Made by a program: the position numbers and the translations under genes. The notes under the pieces are model-generated. The model was not told where the DNA came from and made no database searches. It saw only the letters and a program-made list of their open reading frames with translations. DNA of 41,486 nucleotides from a bacterium (lineage in GTDB: Bacteria > UBA10199 > JACPAL01 > GCA-016699445), in contig DATIGE010000045.1 of assembly GCA_035454885.1 (NCBI GenBank), positions 1 through 41,486 on the forward strand, written 5' to 3'. The first letter of the stretch is position 1, and each line of letters opens with the position of its first letter. Of this stretch, positions 1,603 to 35,806 are shown piece by piece.

Positions 1603-3432
1603 ATGAAACACACTGGATTTTTCCGAAAAGCATCCGGAGAAATAGGGTTCTTGAGTATTGCTGCTCTGATCGCCTTCATGGCCCCCGGTCGGGCCGAAGC
1701 GGCGGTCGCAGATCCCGTACCCGATACTTCCAGCCTGAGCTTTCCGGATACGGAAGTGTCCGTGACCTCGGCGGGCTTGACGGTCATCCTTTCCAAGGGA
1801 ACCGGCTCGGCGGTGACCATCGGCACCACCACCATCACCGGTCCCAACGCCGCGAACTTCGCCGAGTCGGTCAACACCTGCAACGGGGCCACGCTCTCGG
1901 GAGCCGGCACTTGCATCATCACGGTCACCTTCACACCGAGCAGTTTTGGGGCCAAGACGGCGACATTGACTGTCCCGTCCGACGGACCGAGCACCCCCCT
2001 TCTGGTTTCTCTCAGCGGCACGGGTATCGGCTGCGGGGACGGGGCCACCCAGGCCGGTGAAGATTGCGACGACGGCAACACCGCGAACGGCGACTGCTGC
2101 GATTCCACTTGCCAGTTTGAGTCGCTCGGAAGCGCCTGTGACGACGGCAGTGCCTGCACGCCGACGGACGAATGCGACGGCGCCGGCGTCTGCGCCGGCA
2201 GCGGCACGACCTGCGGCGATGGAAGCCTGGACGGGGGATGCGGGGAGGAGTGCGACGACAGCAACACGAACTCGGGAGACGGCTGCAGCAGCATCTGCAT
2301 CGACGAGTTCTGCGGCGACGGATCCATCAACGACAACCTCATCCCCGGCACCGAGGAATGCGACGACGGAGGGAGTAACAGCGACGTGAACCCGGACGCC
2401 TGCCGAACGAACTGCAAGAATCCATCTTGCGGCGATAATGTTGTGGATTCAGGCGAAGACTGCGACGACGGCAACCTCACCGATGGGGACGGCTGCGACG
2501 GCAACTGCACCACGACCGCCTGCGGCAACGGCATCGTCACCTCGGGCGAAGACTGCGACGACGGCAACCTCACCGACGGGGACGGCTGCGACAGCAATTG
2601 CACCGCGACCGCCTGCGGCAACGGTATCGCCACCTCGGGCGAGGCCTGCGACGACGGCAACCTCACCGACGGTGACGGCTGTTCCGCCGATTGCCTCTCC
2701 GACGAAAGCTGCGGAAACGGCATCATAGACAGCGTCGCCGGCGAAACCTGCGACGACGGCGATACAACGACGGGCGACGGCTGCTCGTCCGCCTGTGCCC
2801 AGGAGACCGGCTTTAACTGCACCGGCAGCCCTTCCGCCTGCACCAGCACCTGCGGGGACAATGTCTTGGCATCGGACGAGGGATGCGACGACGGCGATAC
2901 AACGGCAGGCGACGGTTGCTCCTCCGCCTGCGCCCAGGAGACCGGCTTTAACTGCACCGGCAACCCTTCTACCTGCACCAGCACCTGCGGGGACAATGTC
3001 TTGGCATCGGACGAGGGATGCGACGACGGGAACACGGCGAGCGGCGACGGTTGCTCCTCCGCATGCACGGACGAGGTTCCAGGCTCGGTCTGCGGCAACG
3101 GCATCGTCGAAACCGGCGAGACCTGCGACGACGGCAACCTCACCGAGGGTGACGGCTGCGACGCATCTTGCCAGACGGAAGCGCCCGCCCTTCCCGTCTG
3201 CGGAAACGGCGTTCTGGAGGCCGGCGAAGAGTGTGATGACGGGGGCACCGTCGACGGCGACGGTTGCAGTGCCGCCTGCGTCGATGAAGTGCCCGGAGCG
3301 GAGTGCGGTAACGACATCGTCGAGACCGGCGAGGGATGCGACGACGGCAACCTCACCGATGGGGACGGCTGCTCGGCCACCTGCACCACCGAATCGAAAA
3401 AGGACGGCGGCGGCTGCAGCCTGATCCGTTGA
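1603..3432 (+). CDS. Exported cysteine-rich repeat protein (choice-of-anchor D-like + 12 DUF4215 repeats + GGGCSLIR tail)
   Basis: 609 residues. A signal peptide (about 1-33, ending near GRAEA-AVA) is followed by an immunoglobulin-like domain at about 45-145. Its TFTPSSFGAKTATL-type strands resemble choice-of-anchor D/ASH domains. Twelve cysteine-rich units follow, of the form CGxG-x(4-9)-GExCDDGN-x(4)-GDGC-x(3)-C, matching DUF4215 and the myxococcal disulfide repeat TIGR02232. The second unit also holds a CDDGSACTPTDECD stretch. The protein ends KKDGGGCSLIR, the tail shared with four neighbours. The products are probably disulfide-rich and extracellular; no enzymatic motif is visible. The ATG has a purine-rich GGGGGG upstream. 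A strong hairpin terminator follows the stop. The repeats contain recent DNA-level duplications (see 2452-2730 and 2751-3020). The ligand or role is unknown. Confidence 0.85.
   Translation: MKHTGFFRKASGEIGFLSIAALIAFMAPGRAEAAVADPVPDTSSLSFPDTEVSVTSAGLTVILSKGTGSAVTIGTTTITGPNAANFAESVNTCNGATLSGAGTCIITVTFTPSSFGAKTATLTVPSDGPSTPLLVSLSGTGIGCGDGATQAGEDCDDGNTANGDCCDSTCQFESLGSACDDGSACTPTDECDGAGVCAGSGTTCGDGSLDGGCGEECDDSNTNSGDGCSSICIDEFCGDGSINDNLIPGTEECDDGGSNSDVNPDACRTNCKNPSCGDNVVDSGEDCDDGNLTDGDGCDGNCTTTACGNGIVTSGEDCDDGNLTDGDGCDSNCTATACGNGIATSGEACDDGNLTDGDGCSADCLSDESCGNGIIDSVAGETCDDGDTTTGDGCSSACAQETGFNCTGSPSACTSTCGDNVLASDEGCDDGDTTAGDGCSSACAQETGFNCTGNPSTCTSTCGDNVLASDEGCDDGNTASGDGCSSACTDEVPGSVCGNGIVETGETCDDGNLTEGDGCDASCQTEAPALPVCGNGVLEAGEECDDGGTVDGDGCSAACVDEVPGAECGNDIVETGEGCDDGNLTDGDGCSATCTTESKKDGGGCSLIR
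2452..2730 (+). repeat. 93-bp tandem repeat within the Cys-rich gene (3 units)
   Basis: Units begin at 2452, 2545 and 2638, each encoding one 31-residue DUF4215 unit (GED/ACDDGNLTDGDGC...). Many synonymous positions are also identical. This points to recent in-frame duplication or gene conversion rather than selection on the protein alone. Confidence 0.8.
2751..3020 (+). repeat. 135-bp tandem duplication within the Cys-rich gene (2 units)
   Basis: Units 2751-2885 and 2886-3020 encode a 45-residue variant unit with an ETGFNCTG extension. They are nearly identical at DNA level, and the last stretch up to the next CGACGACGG is almost unchanged. A third unit starts at 3021 and diverges after a few codons. 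Confidence 0.85.
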
Positions 3433-4043: not shown

Positions 4044-6263
4044 GTGAAAATTCGATTTCTAACCGTCTTCTTCGGCGTGCTTTGCTTCAGCCTTCCCGCG
4101 CGGGCGGCCGAGTTCACCGTCGACACATTCTTCGACCTGGTCGATTCGTTTCCCGGGGACGGGGATTGCGGGGGTCCCTTGGGCCTTTGTTCGCTGCGGG
4201 GGGCCGTGATGGAGGCGAATGCCCTGGCCGGAACGGACGTCATCCACCTCCCTCAGGGAACTTACACTCTCTCCATCGCCTCCACCCCCGACGAGGACGC
4301 CGGCGCCGACGGGGATTTGGATGTCACCGAAGACGTAACGATTGCCGGCGAGGGATCCGCCGTGACGACGATCAACGGGAACGGCTCGGTCCTCCACGAA
4401 CGGGTCATCCACGTCCTGCCCCCGACGTCGAACTTCACCCTCAGCGGGGTCGAGGTCCGGAACGGCGATGCCACGACCAACGGCGGCTCCTCGCAAGCCG
4501 GGGGCGGAATTCTAATTGACGGCAACATCGCAGCCACCTTGACCGATGTCGGCCTGAACGATAACAACGCGACAGCCGGGGGAGCCCTCCTGTCGGGCGG
4601 CCCCGTCACGGTGACCGACTCGTTCGTCCTGTCCAACACGACCGTGCAATCCCCTGCCGGGATCGCCGCCGCCCAAACCCTCAGCCTCGTCAACACCATC
4701 GTCGAAGGAAACGTGGGTGGCGGTCCCTTGGGAGGCGGCGTGGTCGGCGGCGGCGACGTCACCATCGAAGGCGGTTCGGTCAGCCATAACCGGCTGACGT
4801 CCGGCACCGGCGGAGGGGTCTTGAGGATCGGGGGAGGCGGCAATCTCCACCTGAGGGGTGTCGCCATCGAGGACAATCAAGCGGGCGGCGGGGCCGGCGT
4901 CACCTTTCAAGGAACGGCGACGATCGAGGACTGCGACATACGCGGCAACAGCGCCACGGGCACCTTGCAGGACGGGGGCGGCATCTTGGCTGCGTCGGGC
5001 AGCAGTCTGACCATGACGGTGGGGAGTGTCTCGGACAACTCCAGCACCCGGAACGGGGGCGCCATCTTCATGAACGGCCCCCTGAGTCTCACCGACGTCG
5101 TGTTGGACGGCAACACCGCCGCCAGTGGCGGTGGCGGTATCGCAAACGCCTCCACCGACGCGAACACGCTCACACACGTGACCCTTTCCAACAACGCGGC
5201 GGCCGTCGGCGGAGGAGGCGTCGCCGTTGCCGGGCCCTTGACCCTGACGGAAAGCACCGTGGCCGGGAACTCCTCCGCCAACTTCGGAGGCGGCATTTAT
5301 GTCCTGGGCGTGGTGGCGGTCGAAATGACGCGCTCCACGATCCGCGACAATCAATCCGGGTCCCAGGGCGGCGGGGCCTTCTTGGCCGTCGACACCCTGG
5401 CGATCACCGACAGCACGATCTCCGGCAACAAGGCTTATTCGGGCATGGGCGGCGGCCTCCTCTTCTCCGGAACCAGCGCCACCCTGACCAACGTCACGGT
5501 CAGCGACAATCTCGCGGCCACGAACGGCGGCGGCGCCGGCGTTAACGGAGCGGTGGACGTCGTCAACTCCACCTTCTTCGGCAACGAGGCCGCCGTGAGC
5601 GGCGGCAACATCTTCAACGGCGGCGGTATCTCGACCCTTAAGAACACGATCCTGGCCTCGGCCGGCTCCGGCGGCAACTGCGGCGGGGCCATCACCTCCG
5701 GAGGGAATAACATCGACGACGCCAACACCTGCGCCTTCTCCGTCACCGGCGACCAACACGACACCGACCCGATGTTAGGCCCCCTGGCCGACAACGGCGG
5801 ATTGACCTTCACGCACGCCCTCCTTGCGGGAAGCCCCGCGATCGACCGCGGGACCGATTCGGGCGCCCCCGACCACGACCAGCGCGGTTTCGCCCGGCCC
5901 GTGGACGGGGACGACGATGGGACGGCCGCGACCGACGTCGGCGCGGTGGAGTTCGACCATTGCGGCGACGGGGCCGTGGGACAAGGCGAGGAATGCGACG
6001 ACGGGAACTCCGACAACGATGACACCTGCACCAACGCCTGCGCGAACGCCGTTTGCGGGGACGGCTTCGTGCAATCCGGCAATTCCGAGGCTTGCGACGA
6101 TGGGAACACCGCCGCCGACGATGGCTGTTCGGACGCCTGCGCCGTGGAGAGCGGATTCACTTGCACCGGAGAGCCGAGCGTCTGCACCGCCTCGGGAGGC
6201 ACGACCGGGGGCGGCGGTGGAGGTGGCGGCGGAGGCGGAGGCTGCAGCCTGATCCTTCCCTAA
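4044..6263 (+). CDS. Exported CSLREA / beta-helix / choice-of-anchor Q protein with GGCSLI tail
   Basis: 739 residues from a GTG start preceded by GAGGGGG; the frame is open further upstream but has no ribosome site there. Signal peptide 1-21 (…LPARA-AEF). A CSLRGAV motif at Cys49 is a variant of the CSLREA N-terminal domain (TIGR04214). Residues about 80-560 are right-handed parallel beta-helix (pectate-lyase-like) rungs rich in GGG, N-x-A and T-D/N-S-T motifs. A choice-of-anchor Q-type block follows (GPLADNGG…[14 protein letters not shown]…DQRGFARP…DVGAVE), then two DUF4215 repeats and a poly-Gly run ending GGGCSLILP. No catalytic residues are evident. It is probably a surface or secreted structural or adhesive protein. 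It lies 12 bp upstream of a shorter paralogue, so the two are likely one operon. Substrate unknown. Confidence 0.88.
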
Positions 6264-6275
6264 CAAGGAGATGAT

Positions 6276-7607
6276 ATGAAGATGAACCTGTTTGTTCCCA
6301 TGATCCTGGCCATTCTTCTGCCTGCCGCGGCTTCCGCGGCCACCTTCGCCGTCGACCGGACCGACGACAACGCCGCGGCGACCGCCTGCACCGCCGCCGC
6401 CAATGATTGCAGCCTCAGGGGAGCGGTCATCGCGGCGAACGCGGCCGCCGGCGACGACGTCATCACTCTTCCGGCGGGGACCTATACTCTCACGATCACG
6501 GGACTGAACGAGGATGCTGCCGCCACCGGCGACCTAGACATCCTAGGAAACACGACCCTCAACGGCGCCGGGGCGAAGACCACGATCATCGACGGCAATG
6601 GCACCGACCGTGTCCTTCACGTCGATCCTCCGGTCGCTGGCGGCGTCACCGTGGCTCTCTCGGGTCTCACGATCCAGAACGGCCATGCCGTGGGATCCAC
6701 CACGGACGGAGGAGGCATCCTGAATCAAGGAACGCTGACTCTGACCAATTGCGCGCTCAGAAACAACGCGGCGGGCGCAAATGGTGATGGCGGAGGGATC
6801 TACGACGACGCCGGTCCCTTTATCGCCTGCGTGAATTCCACTATCAGCGGAAATTCGGCGCGGGACGGCGGGGGCATTCTCAGCCGGTCCGCGACCTATA
6901 CGAACTGCACCGTCAGCGGAAACACCGCGAGCGAGTATGGCGGCGGGCTTGTCTTCTCACTGAGTCCGACACCCGATTCAGCGATCGTCAATTCGACCAT
7001 CACCGGCAATAGCGCCGTCACCGTCGGGGGCGGCATCGACGCGTTCGGCAGCGGCGTGCTGACCGTCAAGAACTCGATCGTCAGCGATAACTCGCCTCAG
7101 AACTGCTCCGTCGCGGTCACGTCCGCCGGTCACAACATTGACAGCGGCGCCTCGTGTGCCTTCGCCGCGACCGGAGATCTATCCTCGACCGGTCCCCTGC
7201 TGGGGCCCCTTGAGAACAACGGCGGCCCCACGCTGACGCACGCCCTGCTGGAGGGCAGCCCCGCCATCGACGCGGGCACGGCGACGGGAGCGCCTTCCAC
7301 CGATCAACGCGGCATCTCCCGTCCCGCGGACGGCAACGGCGACGGAACGGCGGCGGTCGATATCGGCGCCTTCGAAGTGGCCTGCGGCGACGGCGTGCTC
7401 CAAACCTTCGCCGGGGAAGACTGCGACGACGGGAACGCCGTCTCCGGCGACGGTTGTTCGGACGCCTGCGCGGTGGAAAGCGGCTTCACTTGCACCGGAT
7501 CCCCTTCCACCTGCACGGCCACGGGAGGATCCACGGGAGGAACCACCGGAGGCTCAACCTCCGGCGGGGGCAGCGGGGGTTGCAGCCTGATCCCGACCAA
7601 ATATTGA
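6276..7607 (+). CDS. Exported CSLREA / beta-helix / choice-of-anchor Q protein (short paralogue) with GGCSLI tail
   Basis: 443 residues; the start is set by AAGGAGATGAT just upstream. Signal peptide 1-21 (…AAASA-ATF). [11 protein letters not shown] follows at Cys45, then a short beta-helix (about 80-290). The choice-of-anchor Q block reads [26 protein letters not shown]…DQRGISRP…DIGAFE. One DUF4215 repeat ([18 protein letters not shown]…) follows, then a Gly/Ser/Thr linker ending [13 protein letters not shown]. Of the five tails this has the most residues after Cys (seven). It is closely related in layout to the gene directly upstream and probably arose by tandem duplication and rung loss. 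It is followed by the lyase gene after 64 bp with no clear terminator, so the lyase may share its transcript. Confidence 0.88.
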
Positions 7608-11985: not shown

Positions 11986-13638
11986 GTGAATAAAGCCCTC
12001 GAAGCGGCCAAGACGATCGTTGCGGTGGCGGGACGCCATCTCGCGCAGCGCGCGAAGGACGATAAGGACCCGAAGGAGATCTCCACCGCCAAGCTCGACG
12101 TCTTCCAGACCGCCGCCTACGACCTGGCGTGGATGGCCTCCGAGGTCTACGCGGCCGAGCAGCTTGCCGCCTACGCCGCCAAGAATCCCGGCGAGGTCGA
12201 AAGGGCCTTGGCGGAAATCTTCACCGCCGAAACCGTCACGAGCATCTCGCAAAAACTCAGCTACCGCTTCCATGAATTCGGCGTCGACGAGCCCAAACTC
12301 CGCGAGACCATCTGGAATATCGAACTCACCAAGGACGTCGAAAAGGTCCTCACGTCGGAAAACTACACGCGCGTTGCGAAGCTCATTAGTGAGAAGGGCG
12401 GAGGAACCTTCGCCCTCGACGACCAGCATCAGATGTTCCGTGACACCTTCAGGAAGTTCGCGGAGGACAATGTCGCCCCGGTGGCCGAAAAGGTGCACCG
12501 CCATGACCTGCTCATCCCGCAGGACATCCTGAAGGGCCTGATCGAGTTGGGATGCTTCGGGCTCTCGATCCCCCAAAAGTTCGGCGGATTTCAGGACGAC
12601 GCCAAGCCCGACAACACGAGCATGGCCGTTGTTACGGAAGAACTATCGCGAGGTTCCTTGGGCGTCGCGGGGAGCCTCATCACGCGACCCGAGATCCTTT
12701 CGAAGGCGATCCTCAAGGGCGGCACCGAGGAACAGAAGGCCAAGTGGCTCCCCTTGCTCGCCACCGGCGAGAAGATGGCGGCCGTGGCGGCGACCGAGCC
12801 CGACTACGGCAGCGACGTCGCCGGCATGAAGGTGACCGCAGCGCGCAAGGATCTCAACGGCAAGAAGGGATGGGTTATCAACGGCGTGAAGACCTGGTGC
12901 ACGTTCGCCGGCTTCGCCGATTCGCTCATGGTCCTCTGCCGCACCGACCCCGACATGTCCAAGAAGCATCGCGGGATGTCGATCCTCATCGCCGAAAAGC
13001 CGCGCTTCGAGGGCCACGAATTCAAATACGACCAGCCGACGGACCAAGGCGGGGGCCACATCGAGGGCAAGGCCATCCCGACCATCGGTTACCGCGGCAT
13101 GCACTCCTACGAGGTCGCCTTCGAAAATTACTGGGTGCCGGAGGAGAACCTGATCGGCGGCGAGGCGGGCCTGGGCAAGGGCTTCTACCTCCAAATGGAG
13201 GGCTTCGCCGGCGGACGGCTCCAGACGGCGGCCCGCGCCTTGGGCGTCATGCAGGCGGCCTTCGAGGCGGCCCTCCGTTACTCGGGCGAACGGAAGGTCT
13301 TCAACAAGCCCATCCTCGATTATCAGATCACGCAATGGAAGCTCGTCCGGATGGCCGCCCTGATCCAGGCCGCCCGCCAGGCGACGTATCACGCCTGCCG
13401 GTTGATGGACGAGCACAAGGGCCAGATGGAGGCGTCGTTGGTGAAGTTCTACGCCTCCAAGATCAGCGAATGGGTGACCCGCGAGGCCCTGCAGATCCAC
13501 GGCGGCTACGGCTACGCGGAGGAGTACGCGGTCAGCCGGTACTTCGTCGACGCGCGCGTGTTCTCCATCTTCGAGGGGGCGGAAGAAGTCCTGGCGCTTC
13601 GGGTGATCGCGCCAACGCTGCTCAAACAATATCTGTAG
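11986..13638 (+). CDS. mcd: Methylsuccinyl-CoA dehydrogenase (long-form acyl-CoA dehydrogenase)
   Basis: 550 residues from GTG. Acyl-CoA dehydrogenases are usually 380-400 residues; methylsuccinyl-CoA dehydrogenase of the EMC pathway is known for an N-terminal extension giving about 550, which matches. Residues 1-145 are a helical extension (…AAYDLAWMASEVYAAEQLA…). The FAD-dependent dehydrogenase follows: DDQHQMFRDTFRKFAEDNVAP, the flavin-binding AAVAATEPDYGSDVAGM, WVINGVKTWCTFAGFADS, GYRGMHSYEVAFENYWVPEENLIG, and the C-terminal LQIHGGYGYAEEYAVSRYFVDARVFSIFEGAEEVLALRVI with a plausible catalytic acid in YAEEY or EGAEEV. It oxidises (2S)-methylsuccinyl-CoA to mesaconyl-CoA, feeding the hydratase encoded at 18359. 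A palindromic repeat element begins at its stop codon. Confidence 0.88.
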   Translation: MNKALEAAKTIVAVAGRHLAQRAKDDKDPKEISTAKLDVFQTAAYDLAWMASEVYAAEQLAAYAAKNPGEVERALAEIFTAETVTSISQKLSYRFHEFGVDEPKLRETIWNIELTKDVEKVLTSENYTRVAKLISEKGGGTFALDDQHQMFRDTFRKFAEDNVAPVAEKVHRHDLLIPQDILKGLIELGCFGLSIPQKFGGFQDDAKPDNTSMAVVTEELSRGSLGVAGSLITRPEILSKAILKGGTEEQKAKWLPLLATGEKMAAVAATEPDYGSDVAGMKVTAARKDLNGKKGWVINGVKTWCTFAGFADSLMVLCRTDPDMSKKHRGMSILIAEKPRFEGHEFKYDQPTDQGGGHIEGKAIPTIGYRGMHSYEVAFENYWVPEENLIGGEAGLGKGFYLQMEGFAGGRLQTAARALGVMQAAFEAALRYSGERKVFNKPILDYQITQWKLVRMAALIQAARQATYHACRLMDEHKGQMEASLVKFYASKISEWVTREALQIHGGYGYAEEYAVSRYFVDARVFSIFEGAEEVLALRVIAPTLLKQYL

Positions 13639-13660
13639 GGGCGAACCTCGTGTTCGCCCG
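13636..13660 (+). repeat. GGGGCGA palindromic element, copy 1
   Basis: GGGCGAAC (13639-13646), loop CTCGT, GTTCGCCC (13652-13659): a perfect 8-bp stem beginning at the dehydrogenase stop codon. It belongs to a dispersed family with the copies at 26645, 28491 and, in reduced form, 32605. Confidence 0.7.
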
Positions 13661-13775: not shown

Positions 13776-16115
13776 ATGGCGATCAAGAAATCGAGAAGTC
13801 TCATACTGGCCGGCGGGATTGCAGGGTTGCTGTATGCCGCGCCGGCCATGGCGGCCAACATCTGCGTGGACAGCACGGCCTTCACGGGAGGTGCGCCGGG
13901 GCAATGCGCGGCGACATGTGACGGGAGCAACGACTGCGATATCCGGGACGCGGTCGCGAAGGCCGATCTGGACAACACGCCCGATACCATCATCTTCGAC
14001 CCGGCCATATTCCCTGCCGGCGGCGGAACAACAATCACGACGACCTCATCAATCTTCTTGTCCTCGCCGGTCACGATTCAGGGGCCGGGGGCCGATTCTC
14101 TGATCGTTGATAATAACGGGAACGGCGACAACGTTTTTGAGATCGACCACGGGGCCTTCGTATCCCCTGCGGGCCCCCACACCATCTCAGGCCTCACGGC
14201 CACGGGAGGAGACAGGGGGGTTCGCGCCATCCATTTTGAAGCGGATGTGATCCTCGACTCCTTGGTGATCGAGGGCAACGGCTCGGTGATCACCGGCGGC
14301 GGCGTCTGGAACCAAAATTCCGCCGGTGCCACCCCCAAGGTCAGGATTCAAAATTGCGTGATCGCGAACAACACGGTGAGCGACGAAGGCGGCGGCGTGG
14401 ACACGGAAGGCGCGGCGGCCACGGAAATCACGAACAGCCTGATCATCGGGAATTCGGCGACGGCCGGCAATGGAAACGGCGGCGGGGTCGCCGTCATCGC
14501 GGGAGCGACGACGACCATTACGGACAGCGTCATTAGCGGAAACGACGCCGACAACAACGGGGGAGGAATCTACCTGGATGCCGGAAGCAGCGTGACCGTC
14601 ACGGATTCCGTAATCTCGGAAAATACGGTCGCCAATTTCGACGGCGGCGGCATCATGGTTTTCAATGACAACGCCTCGGTGACAACGTCCGCAACGATTA
14701 CCGGGACTTCAATTGTCAGGAATTCTGCGAACTCCAGGGGTGGCGGGATCGAGGCAGACGGGACAACGACGAACGATGTGACCAAGACGGCGCTCAGCGT
14801 CACCAACAGCACGATTTCTGGAAATGAGACCGTGACCAGCGATGGAGGAGGAATCGATGGACTTGAGGCGACGATCACGGTCACCGGAACTACGATCGAC
14901 GGAAATCGCGCCGACACTGACGGCGGAGGGATCAATAGCGAGGATGGCGGCGATCTCACCGTCACCTATTCTACCCTTTCCAATAACGCGGCGGGATCCG
15001 ACGGCGGAGGCATCAAGAATGACGACGCACTTTCCTCGGTCAACGTGACGAATTCCACCATCAGCAGCAATAGCGCGGATAACGACGGGGGCGGGATCTC
15101 CAACGACAACAATACAGACAATACGGTCACCCTCATCAACGTAACAATTACGGAAAATCGCGCCGACGCCAATTTTGGCGGAGGGGGCATGGGGGGCGGC
15201 ATCGAGCAGGAATCCGGCGCAGGGGCATTTACGATCACCAATTCTATCATCGCCAATAACTTCAACAGCAGCTCCACGAGCACGATTTCGCCGGATTGCA
15301 GCACCTCCGGCACGAATGTGACCTCCGGCGGCAACAATCTGATCGGATCCGATGCGGGGTGCGCCGATGAGACCTTCGACACCTCCTTGAACGACCAAGT
15401 CGGCTCGGCGGGCTCGGAGATCCCCCCCCTCTTGGGCCCCCTGACTCCTGCCAACGGCGGAGACCCGGCCAATGGACTGGCGACGGGGATCCATGAGCCA
15501 TTGGCCGGGAGCCCCGCCATCGACGGCGTTGATGCCACGGTTGCCACCGCGCCGGCCGATGACCAACGAGGCGTCGCCCGTCCGATCGACGGCGATGCCA
15601 GCGGCACGGCGGAAGCCGATATCGGATCGGTTGAAGCGGGATGCGGGGACGGCGTGGTGAACCTCGGCGAGGTCTGTGACGACGGGGGCGAATCGGCCGC
15701 CTGCAACGCCAACTGCACGACCTCGGCCTGCGGCGACACCGTTATCAATGCCTCGGCCGGCGAGACCTGCGACGACGGGAATACGACGGCCGGTGACGGC
15801 TGTAGCGCTACGTGCGATACGGAGAGCGATACCGATGGCGACGGCGCCGTGGACGTGGCGGACAACTGCCCGAATGTCGCGAACGCGGACCAAGCGGATG
15901 CCGACAGTGACGGCATTGGAGATGCCTGTGACGTCGGCGGAACCGGAGGGGCCCTGGGCGATGACGACGGCGACGGCGTTTCCAACAACGTCGACAACTG
16001 CCCGAATGTCGCTAACGCCGACCAAGAGGACACGGATACGGACGGCATCGGCGACGCCTGCGACTGCAACGGCGGCGATTGCACCGGCGGCGGCGGTTGC
16101 AGCCTGATCCGATAA
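13776..16115 (+). CDS. Exported beta-helix protein with DUF4215 and thrombospondin type 3 repeats and GGGCSLIR tail
   Basis: 779 residues. Signal peptide 1-26 (…APAMA-ANI). The N-terminal block CDGSNDCDIRDAVAKAD is a diverged version of the CSLREA motif. Residues about 80-560 are beta-helix rungs (repeated GGGI and I/V-S-x-N spacing). The choice-of-anchor Q block reads GPLTPANGG…GSPAIDGVD…DQRGVARPIDG…DIGSVE. Two DUF4215 repeats follow. Then come two calcium-binding thrombospondin type 3 repeats (DTDGDGAVDVADNCPNVANADQ… and the near-copy with DTDGIGDACD), and finally [14 protein letters not shown]. Asp-rich TSP3 repeats suggest a calcium-stabilised extracellular stalk. It is the only one of the six with TSP3. 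The ATG is preceded by GGAGGGGGG and the gene is followed by a strong terminator. Confidence 0.87.
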   Translation: MAIKKSRSLILAGGIAGLLYAAPAMAANICVDSTAFTGGAPGQCAATCDGSNDCDIRDAVAKADLDNTPDTIIFDPAIFPAGGGTTITTTSSIFLSSPVTIQGPGADSLIVDNNGNGDNVFEIDHGAFVSPAGPHTISGLTATGGDRGVRAIHFEADVILDSLVIEGNGSVITGGGVWNQNSAGATPKVRIQNCVIANNTVSDEGGGVDTEGAAATEITNSLIIGNSATAGNGNGGGVAVIAGATTTITDSVISGNDADNNGGGIYLDAGSSVTVTDSVISENTVANFDGGGIMVFNDNASVTTSATITGTSIVRNSANSRGGGIEADGTTTNDVTKTALSVTNSTISGNETVTSDGGGIDGLEATITVTGTTIDGNRADTDGGGINSEDGGDLTVTYSTLSNNAAGSDGGGIKNDDALSSVNVTNSTISSNSADNDGGGISNDNNTDNTVTLINVTITENRADANFGGGGMGGGIEQESGAGAFTITNSIIANNFNSSSTSTISPDCSTSGTNVTSGGNNLIGSDAGCADETFDTSLNDQVGSAGSEIPPLLGPLTPANGGDPANGLATGIHEPLAGSPAIDGVDATVATAPADDQRGVARPIDGDASGTAEADIGSVEAGCGDGVVNLGEVCDDGGESAACNANCTTSACGDTVINASAGETCDDGNTTAGDGCSATCDTESDTDGDGAVDVADNCPNVANADQADADSDGIGDACDVGGTGGALGDDDGDGVSNNVDNCPNVANADQEDTDTDGIGDACDCNGGDCTGGGGCSLIR

Positions 16116-16168
16116 TAAACCGTGTCGGAGCGGGGTGACCCCTCCCCTACAACAAGAAGACACCAAAG

Positions 16169-16198
16169 CGGCCTCCCCTCGAGAGGGGAGGCCGTTTT
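16169..16198 (+). terminator. Strong intrinsic terminator
   Basis: A perfect 12-bp stem, CGGCCTCCCCTC (16169-16180) with GAGGGGAGGCCG (16183-16194), has a two-base gap between arms (effective loop CGAGAG after end fraying). AAAG precedes it and TTTT follows. It separates the TSP3 protein gene from the next exported-protein gene; flanking As make it potentially bidirectional. Confidence 0.85.
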
Positions 16199-16347
16199 GC
16201 GTATTCATCTGCATAGGGAACGAATCCTCCAGCTTTAAATCCCGGACGGACGCCGTATTCGTTTGTCATCACAGATTTCCCATCGCCAAGAAAAGCGCTG
16301 CACGCCGCCCGTTCAGAGGTGTAAACTGCCGAAAAAACGGGGGCTCT

Positions 16348-18285
16348 ATGAATCGACATGCGGTTTTCGCCCTTTCCGCCCTTTGTCTGTCGTCGGGTTT
16401 TTCCCTGTCTCGCGCGGCGACCGCGGCCACGATCACCGTCAATACGACGGACGACGAGCAGAACGCCGACAGCGACTGCTCGCTGCGCGAGGCGATCATC
16501 GCCGCCAACACCAATGCCGTCGTCGACGCCTGCGCCAAAGGCGACTCGGGCGCCGATTCGATCGTTGTTCCGGCGGGTTCCTACCTCCTCTCCCGGACGG
16601 GAACCGGCGAAAACGCGGCGAATACGGGGGATCTCGACATCACCGAAGACCTCACGATCACCGGGGCCGGGGCCTCGACGACGATCATCGAGGGCGGCGC
16701 CGGCACCGTCACCACACCGGACCGGGTCTTTCACGTCCTCGGCGGTAACGTGACGTTTCAGGACCTCACGATCCGCAGGGGCGACGCGGGCGCCGGAGAC
16801 GGCGGAGGGATCGGCAACGAAGGTCCGGGGTCCCTCACCCTCGAACGATGCAACGTCTTCGACAATCTGGCGGCGTCGGGAGGCGGACTCTCAAACATAA
16901 TGGCCTCAGCGACATTAACCGTCACCGACAGCCAGATCAGAGGCAACCGCTCCTCCACATCCGGTGGAGGCATCGAAACGGCCAGTGCGACCAATCTGAT
17001 GAGCGGATCGACCCTTTCCAGCAACCAGGCAGTTTCCGGCTTCGGCGGAGGGATGCATTGTTCCGATAGCGGGGCCGGATCGAGGACGACGGTTACCGGC
17101 AGCACCATCTCGGGAAATCAAGCCTCCGTCAACGGCGGGGGCCTCTACAGTTCGGCCGAAACCGCCGAGATCATGAATTCGACGGTCTCGGAAAACCTTG
17201 CTGCGAATGTCGGGGGAGGTGTCAGCGTCTCCGCCAAAACCGTCGCCCTGACGGGGTCCGCCTTTTTAGGCAACCTCGCCGCCAACGGACCCGGCGGCGG
17301 ATTCGTGGGAAGCGCCAGCTTGGCCGGAACCTCTCTTTCCATCACCGATTGCTCGTTCGAAGGAAACTCCGCCATGTTTACGGGAGGTGGAGGGACCACC
17401 ATCGCGGAAACCGTGACGATAACGGGCTCAACGTTCCAAGACAACATCGCCGGAACCGACGGAGGCGGCTTCATGTCTTCGGCCGCGAACGGCGCCACCA
17501 TCGATGTCGTCAACAGCACGTTTGCAGGCAACACGGGGCTTGAGTACGGGGGAGGCATCTTCATAAGCTCCGAAGATGCCTCTTTCACGAATGTCACCCT
17601 CTTTGATAATTTCTCCGACAGTCTCTTCGGTGACGCCGGCGGAATCTACTTTGACGGCATCCATGAGGCAACTCTTCGGAACACGATTATCGCCGGTAAC
17701 TTGGGTGGTAACTGCGGGGGAGGAGGGACATTTACTTCCTTGGGGCATAACATCGAGAGCGCCAACGACTGTAGCCTGGCTCCCGGGGAGTGGATCAACA
17801 CGGATCCCCTTCTCTCCATTCTTCAGGACAACGGCGGCGCGACATTGACCTTGGCTCCCCTGCCTGGAAGTCCCGCCATCGACGGCGGCGACGATACCGG
17901 CTGTCCCCCCGCCGACCAGCGCGGCATCCCCCGTCCCTTGGACGGAGACGAGGACGGGATGGCCGCCTGCGACATCGGGGCCGTCGAGTTCAGTCATTGT
18001 GGGGACGGTTTCGCCGACGCGCATGAGCGAGAGGAATGCGACGACGGCAATTCCGATGATACGGATGCCTGCACGAACACCTGTACAAATGCGGTCTGCG
18101 GCGATGGATTCGTCGAGGCCGGCGTCGAGCAGTGCGATGATGGCAATACCGTCGATGCTGACGGCTGCAGCGCGACGTGCACAACCGAAGAGGGAGGAAC
18201 CACTGGAGGCACCACAGGGGGGACTGCCACCGGCGGCACTAGTGGTGAAGATGGCGGAGGCGGCGGATGCAGCTTGGTCCGATGA
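16348..18285 (+). CDS. Exported CSLREA / beta-helix / choice-of-anchor Q protein with GGGCSLVR tail
   Basis: 645 residues from the ATG at 16348; the frame is open upstream but crosses the terminator. The start is supported by a GGGGGCT stretch and by the signal peptide beginning there (1-26, …RAATA-ATI). It has the canonical motif [11 protein letters not shown] at Cys44, which names the CSLREA domain. Beta-helix rungs run to about 520. The choice-of-anchor Q block reads [25 protein letters not shown]…[11 protein letters not shown]…DIGAVE. Two DUF4215 repeats ([18 protein letters not shown]… and [17 protein letters not shown]…) follow, then a TTGG-rich linker and GGGGCSLVR. No catalytic motif was seen. 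A GGTGTAAA box lies 23 bases upstream of the start. It ends 73 bp before the hydratase gene with no terminator visible. Confidence 0.88.
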
Positions 18286-27620: not shown

Positions 27621-28481
27621 ATGAAAATCAATAAGATCGGAATCCTCGGCACCGGCACCATGGGTCACGGCATCGCCCAGGTCGCCTCCTGGAGCGGTTT
27701 CGAGGTCTTGGTCAAGGACGTGAGCGAAGAGCGCACCAGGAAGGGCGTCTCGCTGATCGAAAAGAATTGGGGGCGATTGGTCGAGAAGGGCAAGGTCACG
27801 CCCGAGCAGGTCGGGAACGCCAAGAAACTCATCAAGGTTTGCACGAGCCTCGAAGAGCTGAAGGACTGCGACCTCATCATCGAAGCCGTCACCGAAAACA
27901 TCCAGATCAAGAAGGATCTCTTCGCCCAGCTGAACGGCGCCATCAAGAAAGAGGCCGTCTTCGCGACGAACACGTCGTCGATTTCCATCACGCTGCTGGC
28001 CGCGTCAAGCGGGCGTCCCGACAAGTTCGTCGGCATGCACTTCTTTAACCCGGTTCCGCTCATGGCCTTGGTGGAGATCATTCGAGGGATACAGACTTCG
28101 GACGACTCCTACCAAAGCGTCTTTGACGTCGCGAAGGCCCTCGGCAAGACGCCGGCGGCGATCAAGGACTCGGCCGGTTTCGCCGTCAACCGCCTCCTCC
28201 TCCCGCTCATCAACGAGGCCTTCTACGTCCTCCAGGACGGAATCGCGGACGCCAAGACGATCGACGAATGCATGAAGCTCGGCGCCAATCATCCGATGGG
28301 CCCCCTCACCCTGGGAGACTTCGTCGGATTGGACGTGACCCTCGCGGCCATGGAGGTCCTCCATCACGATCTCGGCGATGACAAGTACCGGCCCTGCCCG
28401 TTGCTGCGCAAATACGTCGAGGCGGGTTGGTTGGGGCGTAAAACCGGGCGCGGGGTGTATGATTATTCCGAACAAAAATGA
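27621..28481 (+). CDS. hbd: 3-hydroxybutyryl-CoA dehydrogenase
   Basis: 286 residues, the standard length. It interconverts acetoacetyl-CoA and 3-hydroxybutyryl-CoA with NAD(P)H. Nucleotide-binding loop [15 protein letters not shown] (6-20), [17 protein letters not shown], the catalytic region [14 protein letters not shown] and [15 protein letters not shown] with its His, and the C-terminal [20 protein letters not shown]…[18 protein letters not shown] and [12 protein letters not shown]. It supplies 3-hydroxybutyryl-CoA, and after dehydration crotonyl-CoA, for the carboxylase/reductase about 1 kb upstream; the dehydratase is not in the window. A palindromic element follows the stop. Confidence 0.95.
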
Positions 28482-28490
28482 TATGTAAGA

Positions 28491-28515
28491 GGGGCGAATA
28501 CAAGATTCGCCCCTA
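28491..28515 (-). repeat. GGGGCGA palindromic element, copy 3
   Basis: GGGGCGAAT (28491-28499), ACAAG, ATTCGCCCC (28505-28513) followed by TAC: a perfect 9-bp stem. Read on the reverse strand it starts GTAGGGGCGAA and aligns with copies 1 and 2, with a C-G to T-A compensatory change and a C-to-T loop change. Confidence 0.7.
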
Positions 28516-28518
28516 CAC

Positions 28519-29532
28519 ATGCCATTATCCCCTCGCGAAAAGTCGAACATCACCCGCTGGAACGGCCGCCAAAAGCCGTTTTACGAGGTCTACTACGTCA
28601 AGGGTTGCGACACGGCCCAATCGGTGGGGATCTGGCTGCGCTACACGATCCTGTCATCCATCGACCGCCCGCCCGAGGCCTCGGTCTGGGCGATGCTCTT
28701 TGACGCGAAAGACCCGTCCCGCAACGCAGCGATCAAAAAAACGTATCCGCTCCAAAACGTCCGCATCGAGAGGGACGTCTTTTATTTCGCCGCCGGGCCT
28801 TCGGCGATCTTCGACGATGGCTGCCGGGGCGCCGTCGAACAGGACGGCCATCGCGTCTCCTGGGAGTTGAAATTTCCTCCTCACGACCGTCCGGAGCCCC
28901 TCTGGTACTTTCCCAAACCGCTGTACAAGACCGCCTTTCCCAAGACGAAGTTCGTGGTTCCGTACCTCTCGACCTCGCTCTCCGGAGAGTTTTCCTGGAA
29001 CGACCGGAGCTGGGTCTTCGGCCAAATGCCCGCCCATCAAGGGCATCTGTGGGGCACCGAGCACGGCGAGTCTTGGATCTGGGCGAACGCGAATACCTTC
29101 GACGACCCGACGTTCTGCTTCGACGGTCTCTCGGCCCGGATCCGGTTGGGGGACAGGACATCGCCTCCCCTCACCCTGCTTTTCTTTCAATGGGAGGGGC
29201 GCCTCTACCGGTGCAATTCACCCGTCCAATGGTGGACCAACCGGAGCGCGGGCGAGCTCGACCGCTGGCACTTCGAGACGATTTCGGATGATCTCATGTT
29301 CGTCGGCGATTTCCACACCGTCCCCGAACGCATGATGGCCGTCCGCTATCAAGACCCGGCGGGCGGCGAGCGTTTTTCGCACCACACCGAGCACGCCACC
29401 GCGAAGATCCAGGTCTTTGGAAAAACGAAGTCCGGATGGGAGACGATCAAGACGGTCACCGCCGAACGGTCCGCAGCCTTCGAGGTCGTCCGCCGCGAGC
29501 ACGATCCCCGCGTGAAGCTCCTGCTGCCGTGA
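28519..29532 (+). CDS. Tocopherol cyclase/CrtC-AttH-like lipocalin-fold protein (tentative)
   Basis: 337 residues, cytoplasmic by sequence. The opening WNGRQKPFYEVYYVK and the central HQGHLWGTEHGESWIWANANTF resemble the conserved blocks of tocopherol cyclase-like and CrtC/AttH lipocalin-fold proteins (in plant enzymes the equivalent block is H-x-x-H-x-W-G…W-x-W). Many Trp/Phe strands fit a two-barrel lipocalin layout. Substrate unknown; probably a lipid or isoprenoid. The ATG lies directly after palindromic element copy 3 and has no clear Shine-Dalgarno, so translation may depend on the upstream transcript structure. It converges on pyrE with a seven-base gap. Confidence 0.55.
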   Translation: MPLSPREKSNITRWNGRQKPFYEVYYVKGCDTAQSVGIWLRYTILSSIDRPPEASVWAMLFDAKDPSRNAAIKKTYPLQNVRIERDVFYFAAGPSAIFDDGCRGAVEQDGHRVSWELKFPPHDRPEPLWYFPKPLYKTAFPKTKFVVPYLSTSLSGEFSWNDRSWVFGQMPAHQGHLWGTEHGESWIWANANTFDDPTFCFDGLSARIRLGDRTSPPLTLLFFQWEGRLYRCNSPVQWWTNRSAGELDRWHFETISDDLMFVGDFHTVPERMMAVRYQDPAGGERFSHHTEHATAKIQVFGKTKSGWETIKTVTAERSAAFEVVRREHDPRVKLLLP

Positions 29533-30652: not shown

Positions 30653-33004
30653 ATGAAGGAAAAGATCCTAAAAATTCTCCCCGAGGTCCGCAAGCCATCG
30701 CGCTACCTCGGCAACGAGAAGAATGCGGTCAAGAAGGACCTTGCGCGCGTCGACGTCAAGGTCGCGCTCTGCTACCCGGACACCTACGAGATCGGCATGA
30801 GCAACATCGGCCTGTCGGTCCTCTACCACCTCCTGAACGACCGGCCGGACATCGCCTGCGAGCGCGTCTACGCCCCCTGGACCGACATGGAGGCCAAGAT
30901 GCGTGAGCACGACCTGCCGCTCACGACGCTCGAATCCTCCGAGCCCGTCCGTCGATTCGACGTCTTCGGCATCTCGATCCCTTACGAACTCACCTACACG
31001 AACATTCTGACGCTGCTCGACCTGGCGAAAATCCCGTTCTTCGCCAAGGACCGGGATGCGTCTGACCCCTTGATCCTGGGGGGCGGCACGGGCGCCTTCA
31101 ATCCGGAGCCGGTCGCCGAGTTCTTCGACGCCATCGTCGTGGGCGACGGCGAAGAGGCGATTCTCGAGGTCTGCGAGGCGGTCAAGACGTTCAAAACCAA
31201 TAGGCCCGAATTGTTGAAACGATTGGCGCGGATCCCGGGCGTCTACGTCCCCTCTTTCTTCGACGTCTTCTACAACGGCGACGGCACGGTCCGCGAGATC
31301 CGTCCCCTTCTCGAAGGCTACGCCGGCGTCAGGAAGCGCACCGTCTCCGACCTGAACGCCGCTTACTTTCCCGACACGCCCATCGTCCCCCATACCAAGG
31401 TGATCCACGACCGGATCGGCGTCGAGGTCCAGCGCGGGTGCACGCGCGGCTGCCGGTTCTGCCAGGCGGGCTACATCTACCGCCCCGAGCGCCAGCGATC
31501 GCCGGAAACCGTCAAGAGGATCGTGCGGAATCAGCTGGCGGCGACCGGCCTCGAGGACGTGAGCCTGGTCTCCCTCTCCATCGGCGACTACGACTGCGTG
31601 ACCCCGCTCCTCAAGGACCTCATGGACGAGCACGGACCGAAGAAAGTCGGCGTTTCGCTCCCGGCCACGCGCGTGGAGCAACTGACCGAGGCCATGATGA
31701 TGGAGATCAAGCGCGTCCGGAAGACCGGATTCACCATCGCCCCGGAGGCGGCGACCGAGCGGATGCGGAACGTGATTAATAAGGGCAACTCCGAGGAAAA
31801 CCTCCTGACGACGGCCAAGACCGTCTTCTCCAACGGCTGGAGCCTCATGAAGTTCTACTTCATGATCGGGCTGCCCACCGAGACCGACGAGGACGTCGCG
31901 GCCATCGCGGAGTTGGGCAAAAAGACATTGGGCATCGGCCTCCAGCACAACCGCCGCGCCGAGATCAACCTGGGCGTCTCCCCCTTTGTGCCCAAGCCGT
32001 TCACGCCCTACCAGTGGGCCCCGCAGATCCCCCTGGCGGAATGTCACCGCAAGCTCGACCTCCTCCGGTCGCGCCTCCGCTCGCGGCGCCTGAACCTGAA
32101 GCCCCACAAGCCCGAGACGAGCTACCTGGAAGGTGTCTTCTCCCGGGGCGACAGGCGCCTCTCGAGTCTCGTCCTCCGGGCCTGGGAAAAGGGCTGCCGC
32201 TTCGACGAGTGGGACGAGGGCCTGCGTTACGAGAAATGGAAGGAGGCTTGGACGGAACTGGGAATCGACCCGGCCTTCTATGTCGAACGCGAAAGAACGC
32301 GGGACGAGATCCTTCCGTGGGACCATCTCTTCGTGGAGATGAAGAAGGACTGGCTCTGGGAGGAGTGGCAGGCGTCGCTCAAGACGGAATTCATCGCCGA
32401 CTGTTCAACGGGGACCTGCACGTCCTGCGGTGTCTGCGACTATTCCGAAGTCCGAAACCGCTCTTATGAACAGCCGGTCCTGAACGACCAGGGCAAGGCC
32501 GTGAAGAAGAAGACGACGACGGAGGTCAGGCTGTATCAGATCGAGCCGTTGAAGGACATCGTGGCGAATTTTCGAACAAGCATTGAGAAAAGGACCCCGG
32601 TTGCAGGGGCGCCAGGCCTGGCGCCCCTACCCGGAAACACCGTTTCCTACACCTGCACCTTCTCCAAAACCGGCCCCGGCGCGTTCTTGAGCCACCTCGA
32701 ATTCGTCGACACCCTGCGCCGCGCCGTCTCGCGGGGGGATCTTCCGGTTCGCTTCAGCCAGGGCTTCCATCCGCAGCCGCGCATTTCCTTTGGACCCGGC
32801 ATGCCGGTGGGCAAGGAGATGTTCGACCAGGAATTCAAACTGGAGTTGGACGCCGCGGTGGACCCGGAGGAAATCCGTTCCCGCCTGAACCGCGAACTGC
32901 CGGAGGGCTTTCTCGTCGCCACCGTCAGCCAGGTCCCGGCAAATGCAAGGCCGCCCGCGCGTCCTGAACCGTCGCCGGCGTTCTCCCCCTCTCTCGAACC
33001 TTGA
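30653..33004 (+). CDS. B12-binding/radical SAM protein fused to DUF2344 domain
   Basis: 783 residues. TIGR03960-type architecture: a B12-binding-like N-terminal part (KPSRYLGNEKNAV…YPDTYEIGMSNIGLSVLYHLLN), a radical SAM core with GCTRGCRFCQAG giving the CX3CX2C cluster ligands Cys263, Cys267 and Cys270, and an Elp3-like barrel. A Cys cluster follows (CSTGTCTSCGVCDYSE, about 583-598), then a C-terminal DUF2344 domain (about 664-765: FLSHLEFVDTLRRAVSRGDLPVRFSQGFHPQPRISFG). The family is suspected to modify RNA or protein; the substrate is not established. A palindromic repeat element is embedded in frame, encoding the linker at 649-660. No Shine-Dalgarno is evident; a TATACT box lies 30 bases upstream. 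The 3' end overlaps the convergent next gene by 80 bp. Confidence 0.9.
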   Translation: MKEKILKILPEVRKPSRYLGNEKNAVKKDLARVDVKVALCYPDTYEIGMSNIGLSVLYHLLNDRPDIACERVYAPWTDMEAKMREHDLPLTTLESSEPVRRFDVFGISIPYELTYTNILTLLDLAKIPFFAKDRDASDPLILGGGTGAFNPEPVAEFFDAIVVGDGEEAILEVCEAVKTFKTNRPELLKRLARIPGVYVPSFFDVFYNGDGTVREIRPLLEGYAGVRKRTVSDLNAAYFPDTPIVPHTKVIHDRIGVEVQRGCTRGCRFCQAGYIYRPERQRSPETVKRIVRNQLAATGLEDVSLVSLSIGDYDCVTPLLKDLMDEHGPKKVGVSLPATRVEQLTEAMMMEIKRVRKTGFTIAPEAATERMRNVINKGNSEENLLTTAKTVFSNGWSLMKFYFMIGLPTETDEDVAAIAELGKKTLGIGLQHNRRAEINLGVSPFVPKPFTPYQWAPQIPLAECHRKLDLLRSRLRSRRLNLKPHKPETSYLEGVFSRGDRRLSSLVLRAWEKGCRFDEWDEGLRYEKWKEAWTELGIDPAFYVERERTRDEILPWDHLFVEMKKDWLWEEWQASLKTEFIADCSTGTCTSCGVCDYSEVRNRSYEQPVLNDQGKAVKKKTTTEVRLYQIEPLKDIVANFRTSIEKRTPVAGAPGLAPLPGNTVSYTCTFSKTGPGAFLSHLEFVDTLRRAVSRGDLPVRFSQGFHPQPRISFGPGMPVGKEMFDQEFKLELDAAVDPEEIRSRLNRELPEGFLVATVSQVPANARPPARPEPSPAFSPSLEP
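32605..32628 (-). repeat. GGGGCG palindromic element inserted in frame in the radical SAM gene (copy 4)
   Basis: A perfect 22-bp palindrome GGGGCGCCAGG / CCTGGCGCCCC (32606-32627), one further pair outside, flanked by TAC on the right. On the reverse strand it reads GTAGGGGCG…CGCCCC like the intergenic copies. It is translated as GAPGLAP in the linker between the radical SAM part and DUF2344. Confidence 0.6.
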
Positions 33005-34051: not shown

Positions 34052-35806
34052 ATGAAAAAAATCTTGAGTCTTGTGGTCTGCGCCCTCTGGCTGCCCGTCG
34101 TCGCGTCATTGGTTTTGGGCGCCGGGGGCTGCGCCGGTTCCCCCGACGAGGCCACGATCAAGGCATCGGGCACCACCAAGACCCCTCCCACCGGTGACAC
34201 CTCCGGCCCGACGGCCGGTGCGGGAGAAAAAGAAGAAGTCATCACGCCGACGGGAGAGACAACGACAGGAGGGGCGACCACGGGTGGCACGACATCAGGG
34301 GGCGGCAGTGGTGAAACGACCACCGGCGGCACCGGAACTCCCCCGACCGCCTGCGGCGACGGGAGCCTCGACCCGGGGGAGGGCTGTGACGACGGGAACG
34401 TCGCCGGCTCCGACGGTTGCGCCGCCGATTGCACCGTGGAAACCGGCTATACCTGCACGGGGGTCCCCAGCGCCTGCGCCGCGATTCCGCCCCCGGAGAA
34501 GACTTATTGCAACCGGTACGCCTTCGTTTCCGACCGCGTGGGTTCGGCGGCCGAAAACCTCTTTCTCGCCAACGACTGTGCGGGAGGGGCCGCACCCCTT
34601 CAAATTACGAAGAACGCCAAGGAATCATTCATCTGGAAATTCCAAGGCGGGCCCACGTTCAATCATGATGGCACGAAAATCGCCTCGGACTTTTTTGGCA
34701 TGGTCATGTTGCTCATCATTCCCGTCCCGCTGGGAGGTACCACGGGCATCTATGACATCGTCGCCTCCCCGCCCGCCTTAAGTTATAGTCTCGATCTCGA
34801 CGCGAACGACGACGGAAGCGGAGATTACATTCCTCGGTATCTGAAATGGAGCCAGAATGGGAACAAGTTCGCCTTCCTCGCCGGTCAGATTCCCGTCTGC
34901 GGCAACAACATCCGGGAAGGCTACGAACAGTGCGACGACGGCAACACGACATCGGGCGACGGCTGCAGCGACCTGTGCACGAAGGAAAACGCGCCGTCCG
35001 ACGAAGAGCCGTCCAAGAATCAATTTTTCGTGAAGCAAATCCGCATGGGCACCAATCCCGAAAACATCGGCCCTGCGAATTCGAGGATCCTTGTCCCCAA
35101 CAACGCCCAAGGCACGCTCGACTTCAATGAGGTCACGTGGTCCAAAGACGGCCACCTCGTCTTTTCCCGTAAGGATGGCGACGAAAAGTACGATCTTTAT
35201 GCCACCGATCCGTCCCAGGATTTGGGATTAACCGTTAAGATCGAAGGCATTAACTTTGATGGGACCGACGAGACCGACCCGTCGTTCGCCGTCGGGAGCG
35301 ACAAGCTGCTGTTTGTCCGCGACGGCGACATTTGGTCCTGCGATTTCAAGGTTTCGGCGACCACCGTCGACTTCACGATGCCAACGGGTTTTTCGCAGAG
35401 CTGCTCCTCCGTCATGGGAACACAAGTCTGCTTCCCTTCAGGCGTAACCACGTCGACGACCAGCATCCCGGTCAAGACCTACCGTTGCGAGCATCAGACG
35501 CAGATCACGGACAGAAGCGGCGAGGCCAAGGACGCGCATCCGTGCTATTCCTACGACGGCAAGTACATCTTTTTCGCATCCAACAAGCCTCATGGAAGCG
35601 GCGGCGCGGAGAAGGATTGGGAAATCTGGCGGATCAACGCGGACGGGTCGGGGGAATACAATCTCACGAACAACACGGCCGACGAGGACGAAGTCGCCTG
35701 CTCGCCCGTCCATGGCCCGGAGGGCAAACCGGCGATCGCTTACCAGTTTTACATCTCGCCCACCAAAATGTACCACTACATGCCCGTAACGCCCACAGGC
35801 CCCTAA
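34052..35806 (+). CDS. Putative lipoprotein with TolB/PD40-like propeller repeats and DUF4215 inserts
   Basis: 584 residues from the ATG preceded by GGGAGGAG. The N-terminal signal ends …SLVLGAGGC, a loose lipobox with Cys27, so outer-membrane anchoring is likely. A Gly/Thr-rich linker (30-100) leads to a DUF4215 unit (CGDGSLDPGEGCDDGN…, about 105-150). WD40-like beta-propeller blades follow (YAFVSDRVGSAAENLFLA, GPTFNHDGTKIASDFF, LVFSRKDGDEKYDLYATD, IFFASNKPHGSGGAEKDWEIWRINADGSGEYNLTNNTADED). A second DUF4215 unit (CGNNIREGYEQCDDGN…) interrupts the blades at about 285-320. TolB-type propellers bind proteins or polysaccharide; the partner is unknown. It ends without the GCSLI tail, as expected if it is anchored at its N-terminus instead. 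Confidence 0.8.
   Translation: MKKILSLVVCALWLPVVASLVLGAGGCAGSPDEATIKASGTTKTPPTGDTSGPTAGAGEKEEVITPTGETTTGGATTGGTTSGGGSGETTTGGTGTPPTACGDGSLDPGEGCDDGNVAGSDGCAADCTVETGYTCTGVPSACAAIPPPEKTYCNRYAFVSDRVGSAAENLFLANDCAGGAAPLQITKNAKESFIWKFQGGPTFNHDGTKIASDFFGMVMLLIIPVPLGGTTGIYDIVASPPALSYSLDLDANDDGSGDYIPRYLKWSQNGNKFAFLAGQIPVCGNNIREGYEQCDDGNTTSGDGCSDLCTKENAPSDEEPSKNQFFVKQIRMGTNPENIGPANSRILVPNNAQGTLDFNEVTWSKDGHLVFSRKDGDEKYDLYATDPSQDLGLTVKIEGINFDGTDETDPSFAVGSDKLLFVRDGDIWSCDFKVSATTVDFTMPTGFSQSCSSVMGTQVCFPSGVTTSTTSIPVKTYRCEHQTQITDRSGEAKDAHPCYSYDGKYIFFASNKPHGSGGAEKDWEIWRINADGSGEYNLTNNTADEDEVACSPVHGPEGKPAIAYQFYISPTKMYHYMPVTPTGP

Follow-up and report, generated by a model that had tools for sequence, protein, structure and literature searches.

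A palindromic element within a radical SAM gene

The window analysed here, a stretch of 41,486 nucleotides, is one contig (C45) of the 82 that make up a 2.76-Mb bacterial genome (G000). On its plus strand, positions 30653-33004 encode a radical SAM protein of 783 aa that joins a TIGR03960 match (residues 7-597) to the N-terminal half of TIGR03936/DUF2344 (residues 666-766). Between these matches, residues 618-660 (32504-32632, plus strand) form a predicted disordered linker with pLDDT < 50, flanked by two well-folded parts in an AlphaFold2 prediction made from a 26-row alignment (A1). The DUF2344/TIGR03936 domain ends at position 102 of 209 (32925-33004); since the proteins of the four nearest relatives (L085-L088) are likewise short, this truncation predates the palindrome described below.

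Within the open frame, on the minus strand at 32603-32630, lies a GTAG-tagged palindromic element of 28 bp with one mismatched pair, which reads GTAGGGGCGCCAGGCCTGGCGCCCCTGC. The initial annotation had reported a perfect palindrome of 22 bp; the palindrome is real but longer, with a perfect core of 24 bp (32605-32628, strandless) that matches the pattern AGGGGCN{8,18}GCCCCT. The tag occupies 32627-32630 of the minus strand (CTAC on the plus strand), and in this copy CTAC pairs with three of its four positions. On the minus strand, the GTAGGGGCG arm is exact at 32622-32630; at the other end it recurs with one mismatch. Searched for alone within the window with one mismatch allowed, GTAGGGGCG is not significant (19 matches against 11.9 expected). 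The 24-bp core is the longest palindrome of the window, the runner-up being 18 bp, and as single-stranded DNA the palindrome stretch folds better than all 200 of 200 shuffles (z = -3.4). It encodes residues of about 651-660, A-G-A-P-G-L-A-P-L-P, and thus lies, as first annotated, in frame between the radical SAM and DUF2344 domains.

Two forms of a dispersed repeat family

We assign the palindrome to a repeat family because of whole-genome pattern counts: GTAGGGGCGN{3,20}CGCCC has 72 matches in the genome, compared with 1 for the reversed control pattern. The pattern is present in 25 of the 46 genomes searched, this one included, several of which have reversed-pattern counts that are equal or larger. 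Two further matches lie in the window, both hairpin-type REPs. One, GTAGGGGCGAACCTCGTGTTCGCCC, on the plus strand at 13635-13659, carries the same GTAG tag, which supplies the TAG stop of the ORF at 11986-13638, as described for GTAG REPs; the other, GTAGGGGCGAATCTTGTATTCGCCCCT, lies on the minus strand at 28490-28516, between ORFs 27621-28481 and 28519-29532. A separate Cys-rich CDDGN repeat is found in many copies in several large ORFs of the window (2000-3420, 5980-7560, 15630-18280 and 34340-34990).

The majority of family copies are hairpins of the form GTAGGGGCGAACCTYGTGTTCGCCC, which fit the description of GTAG REPs by Di Nocera et al. (2013; PMC3733652). The second form, to which the copy in the radical SAM gene belongs, spans 28 bp as a near-perfect palindrome, GTAGGGGC-N12-GCCCCTAC, whose tag takes part in the pairing. 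Its inner length is 12, so that the pattern GTAGGGGCN{7,9}GCCCCTAC has the wrong spacing and its zero counts are uninformative; the control for AGGGGCN{8,18}GCCCCT is noisy (26 strand matches versus 50), and these sites were therefore judged singly.

The two forms differ strongly in where they lie. Of 16 near-perfect palindromes, 10 lie in frame inside genes, the radical SAM copy among them; of 56 hairpin REPs, 5 do so (Fisher p = 2.8e-5), the remaining 51 not being scored in frame inside genes. This scoring used a codon-score rule trained on the window with cut-offs of our own, and covered sites at least 230 bases from a locus end; a site in a DUF2064 glycosyltransferase (L151) that looks in frame on inspection escaped the rule and was counted as not in frame. 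Judged by alignment or by their sequence, the hosts of near-perfect copies include homologues of LeuS, MoeA and BioA, an agmatine-deiminase-like protein and an NnrE/NnrD-like protein with two copies. Hairpin copies lie inside Tgt, a QueA-like protein, a PurL-like protein (AIRS domains) and a RAYT. The QueA-like protein (L180) is short here, at 275 aa, and most class relatives match it in two stretches that break near residues 62-75, which suggests from these alignments that an internal segment has been lost.

An identical 28-bp unit, GTAGGGGCACGGCGCGCCGTGCCCCTAC, is present in three unrelated genes, encoding an NnrD-like kinase, a MoeA homologue and an ABC-F-like ATPase, which argues for copying rather than convergence. 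In-gene near-perfect copies translate as VGAxxxxPL or RGxxxxAPT, and have kept their 28 bp, no more than one pair being mismatched; their inner arms vary from copy to copy and their host genes are unrelated. Read on either strand, the element leaves two of three frames open while the third hits TAG, so a fair share of landings with a length change that is a multiple of three would survive in loops and linkers.

The genome also encodes one Y1_Tnp (RAYT-type) gene, on contig C68, inside a cluster of hairpin/GTAG REPs. This gene (L114, 1620-2267) has a REP pair within its frame, a further REP at its end and a Pfam match that covers the C-terminal half only. Given the in-frame pair and the partial match, the sole RAYT found in this genome may not be active.

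Linkers and loops as possible landing sites

The initial annotation had expected residues 649-661 to hold an insertion of about 8-14 residues that no other genome shares. Of 81 orthologue loci besides our own, 54 could be aligned, and 27 that were partial or split were dropped. The peptide of residues 651-660 is absent from all 54, so this part of the expectation holds, and none of the 54 was seen to carry the same linker encoded by unrelated DNA. Length is uninformative as to an insertion: the linker is hypervariable among orthologues, the segment being 69 aa long in this genome, while the four nearest relatives have 60, 61, 65 and 86 aa. The nearest orthologues are 61-66% identical, too distant for the exact target or any duplication to be read off.

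The same linker carries repeats in other lineages. In G017 it holds a GTAG REP dimer, in a genome with 81 matches to GTAGGGGCGN{3,20}CGCCC; in G003 and G037 it consists of repeats that recur across the respective genome (30 and 48 matches, self and both strands counted); and in G008, G032 and G001 it contains long inverted repeats whose arms measure 19, 15 and 14 bases. The linkers of G004 and G006 contain no inverted repeat with arms longer than 5 bp. With G000 left out, the linker holds the gene's longest inverted repeat in 5 of 27 orthologues, against 0.54 expected (P = 0.0002). The radical SAM linker thus seems to be a place where landing repeats are tolerated, and not the scene of a one-off event.

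We examined two other loops in the same way, the radical SAM, LeuS and QueA loops all having been selected since G000 carries an element there. The LeuS loop contains the gene's longest inverted repeat in 2 of 28 orthologues (P = 0.025), and the LeuS gene of G045 provides a third case, a 28-bp palindrome at the same loop as in G000. The corresponding figure for the QueA loop is 2 of 19 (P = 0.08), making QueA the weaker case for a landing pad. NnrD, NnrE and ABC-F were considered as additional landing pads and rejected, no other palindromic insert being recognised by eye in their orthologues.

In-frame palindromes also occur in related genomes. We read 23 palindromes in 20 stretches of G043, G045 and G013 picked from the pattern listing, and 8 of the 23 lie in ORFs with tool-supported identity. 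In G045 and G043, which belong to the same class as G000, palindromes are in frame in LeuS (two), MurD (two), PdxA, RsmG, MutS and a COX2-cytochrome c protein; further palindromes lie in ORFs that we take to be PriA and UvrD-like. The MurD and LeuS genes of G045 (L216, L218) each contain two such palindromes. None of the four palindromes read in G013 lies in an ORF of at least 100 aa.

Origin of the palindrome and relation to known repeats

We propose, with a probability of roughly 0.85, that the palindrome is a copy of a mobile, REP-like element with a GTAG tag, which came to lie in frame in the disordered linker of the radical SAM/DUF2344 protein and persisted through the tolerance of that linker. 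The element would have been copied by a RAYT-type (REP-associated tyrosine) transposase, and its retention in this linker was probably near-neutral; we infer the mobility, expression and mechanism of the element. The view that an in-frame insertion was tolerated between domains is borne out insofar as a dispersed element lies in frame in a predicted disordered linker, but the event is not isolated, being one of 10 in-frame copies.

How such copies enter genes is illuminated by net changes in protein length. In LeuS the net change is about 0: the loop aligns gap-free to that of T. thermophilus LeuRS and has 11 residues, compared with 7-13 in loops lacking a long repeat, which together rule out a clean insertion in this protein. 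Relative to their nearest relatives, NnrD has gained 1 residue and NnrE has lost 3; relative to homologues, BioA is shorter by 4, MoeA longer by 4 and agmatine deiminase longer by 4 or 7; the hairpin copy in Tgt is accompanied by a gain of 6, and PdxA and MurD of G045 each show a net gain of 9. Measurable changes therefore span -4 to +9 residues, and a simple gain of about 10 residues is, on these alignments, not the rule. On its own, an insertion of 28 bp would put a gene out of frame, and must therefore be accompanied by some gain or loss of target bases; and since the net change is often smaller than 9-10 residues, either target bases were lost at insertion or the insert was trimmed later.

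These lengths bear on the most serious alternative, that resident loop DNA was overwritten and became the palindrome through template switching or an event akin to gene conversion, which would hardly alter the length and would keep the arms matched. Near-zero or negative changes in LeuS, NnrD, NnrE and BioA agree with overwriting, as does the persistence of in-gene copies as 28-bp units with at most one mismatched pair, and for palindromes in mitochondrial coding sequence PMC6649704 discusses template switching as an active means of maintaining the arms. Insertion, however, predicts gains like the 9 residues of G045 PdxA and MurD, and local template switching would not yield identical 28-bp units in unrelated genes, so that we regard overwriting as improbable, though likelier than the remaining alternatives. 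The palindrome might instead be a fossil intergenic REP, read through when separate radical SAM and DUF2344 genes fused. Several Clostridia orthologues are indeed separate ORFs with ends near residue 595, and most hairpin REPs (51 of 56) were not scored in frame inside genes; yet the nearest relatives are already fused, no inverted repeat in the linkers of G004 and G006 has arms of more than 5 bp, the palindrome is nearly perfect and hence probably young, and the LeuS and QueA loops follow the same pattern without any fusion. We consider this origin quite unlikely.

Less probable still is that the hairpin was selected as a DNA or RNA signal inside genes, such as a protein site, a translational pause or a supercoiling site. 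A nearly perfect palindrome in coding DNA and its favourable DNA fold are what such a function would predict, but inner arms differ among copies in unrelated host genes, and the relatives' radical SAM linker holds unrelated repeats or none. A chance palindrome in an ordinary linker is the least credible account: 24 bp is reached in only 1 of 200 simulated windows with the same dinucleotide make-up, a frequency that leaves some room for chance, but the tag and arms of the palindrome are those of a family that has 72 pattern matches, and its translation resembles that of other in-gene copies (xGAxxxxPL); we reject chance on the strength of this family link.

The initial annotation likened the palindrome to those of Rickettsia, but among known kinds the intragenic GTAG REP, already in print, comes closest. 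PMC3733652 describes GTAG REPs as having an unpaired tag and as mostly intergenic with some inside ORFs, and notes different REPs at about the same recB site in two Xanthomonas species, suggesting flexible linkers or loops. Like these, the elements studied here are short palindromes with a GTAG terminus that are dispersed in many copies, form dimers and clusters and are associated with a RAYT gene; their tag supplies TAG stops, and some copies lie inside ORFs. Their 28-bp unit, with 72 pattern matches, falls within the dispersed 20-40 bp units described there, and the repeat-flanked Y1_Tnp gene on C68, known from sequence, corresponds to the RAYT genes of that description. The near-perfect class departs from it in pairing GTAG with CTAC and in not being mostly intergenic (10/16 in frame), whereas the hairpin class fits (5/56). 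Rickettsia RPEs are likewise palindromic repeats in frame within unrelated, probably functional proteins, but their tag is CGTC (PMC3733652) and they measure about 150 bp (PMC10969869, a MITE review) versus 28 bp here; the tag rules out a Rickettsia-type RPE. Nematomorpha mitochondrial genes also contain perfect inverted repeats within coding sequence, which according to PMC6649704 reach 284 bp and, unlike the present elements, form no dispersed tagged family.

In a search that covered mostly open-access papers, the recB remark of PMC3733652 is the only statement we found on shared landing sites or in-gene REPs, and we did not find in print a paired-tag class with a gene preference, nor loop reuse by unrelated repeats. 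We tentatively suggest, at somewhat less than even odds, that the double-tagged 28-bp GTAG palindromes form a distinct class that prefers conserved genes of one bacterial class and partly overwrites flexible loops, and that the radical SAM/DUF2344 linker, the LeuS editing-domain loop and the QueA loop are shared landing pads filled independently by unrelated repeats across lineages. In-frame palindromes were first described as a peculiarity of Rickettsia and later for REPs in several species; the present family adds a dispersed case from a class whose members are mostly uncultured, and in which several lineages have the same protein loops struck. Comparison across genomes would allow both the tolerance of loops and the rules of REP insertion to be measured, and the question of how REPs are copied could likewise be approached through the paired-tag class and the preference it shows for genes.
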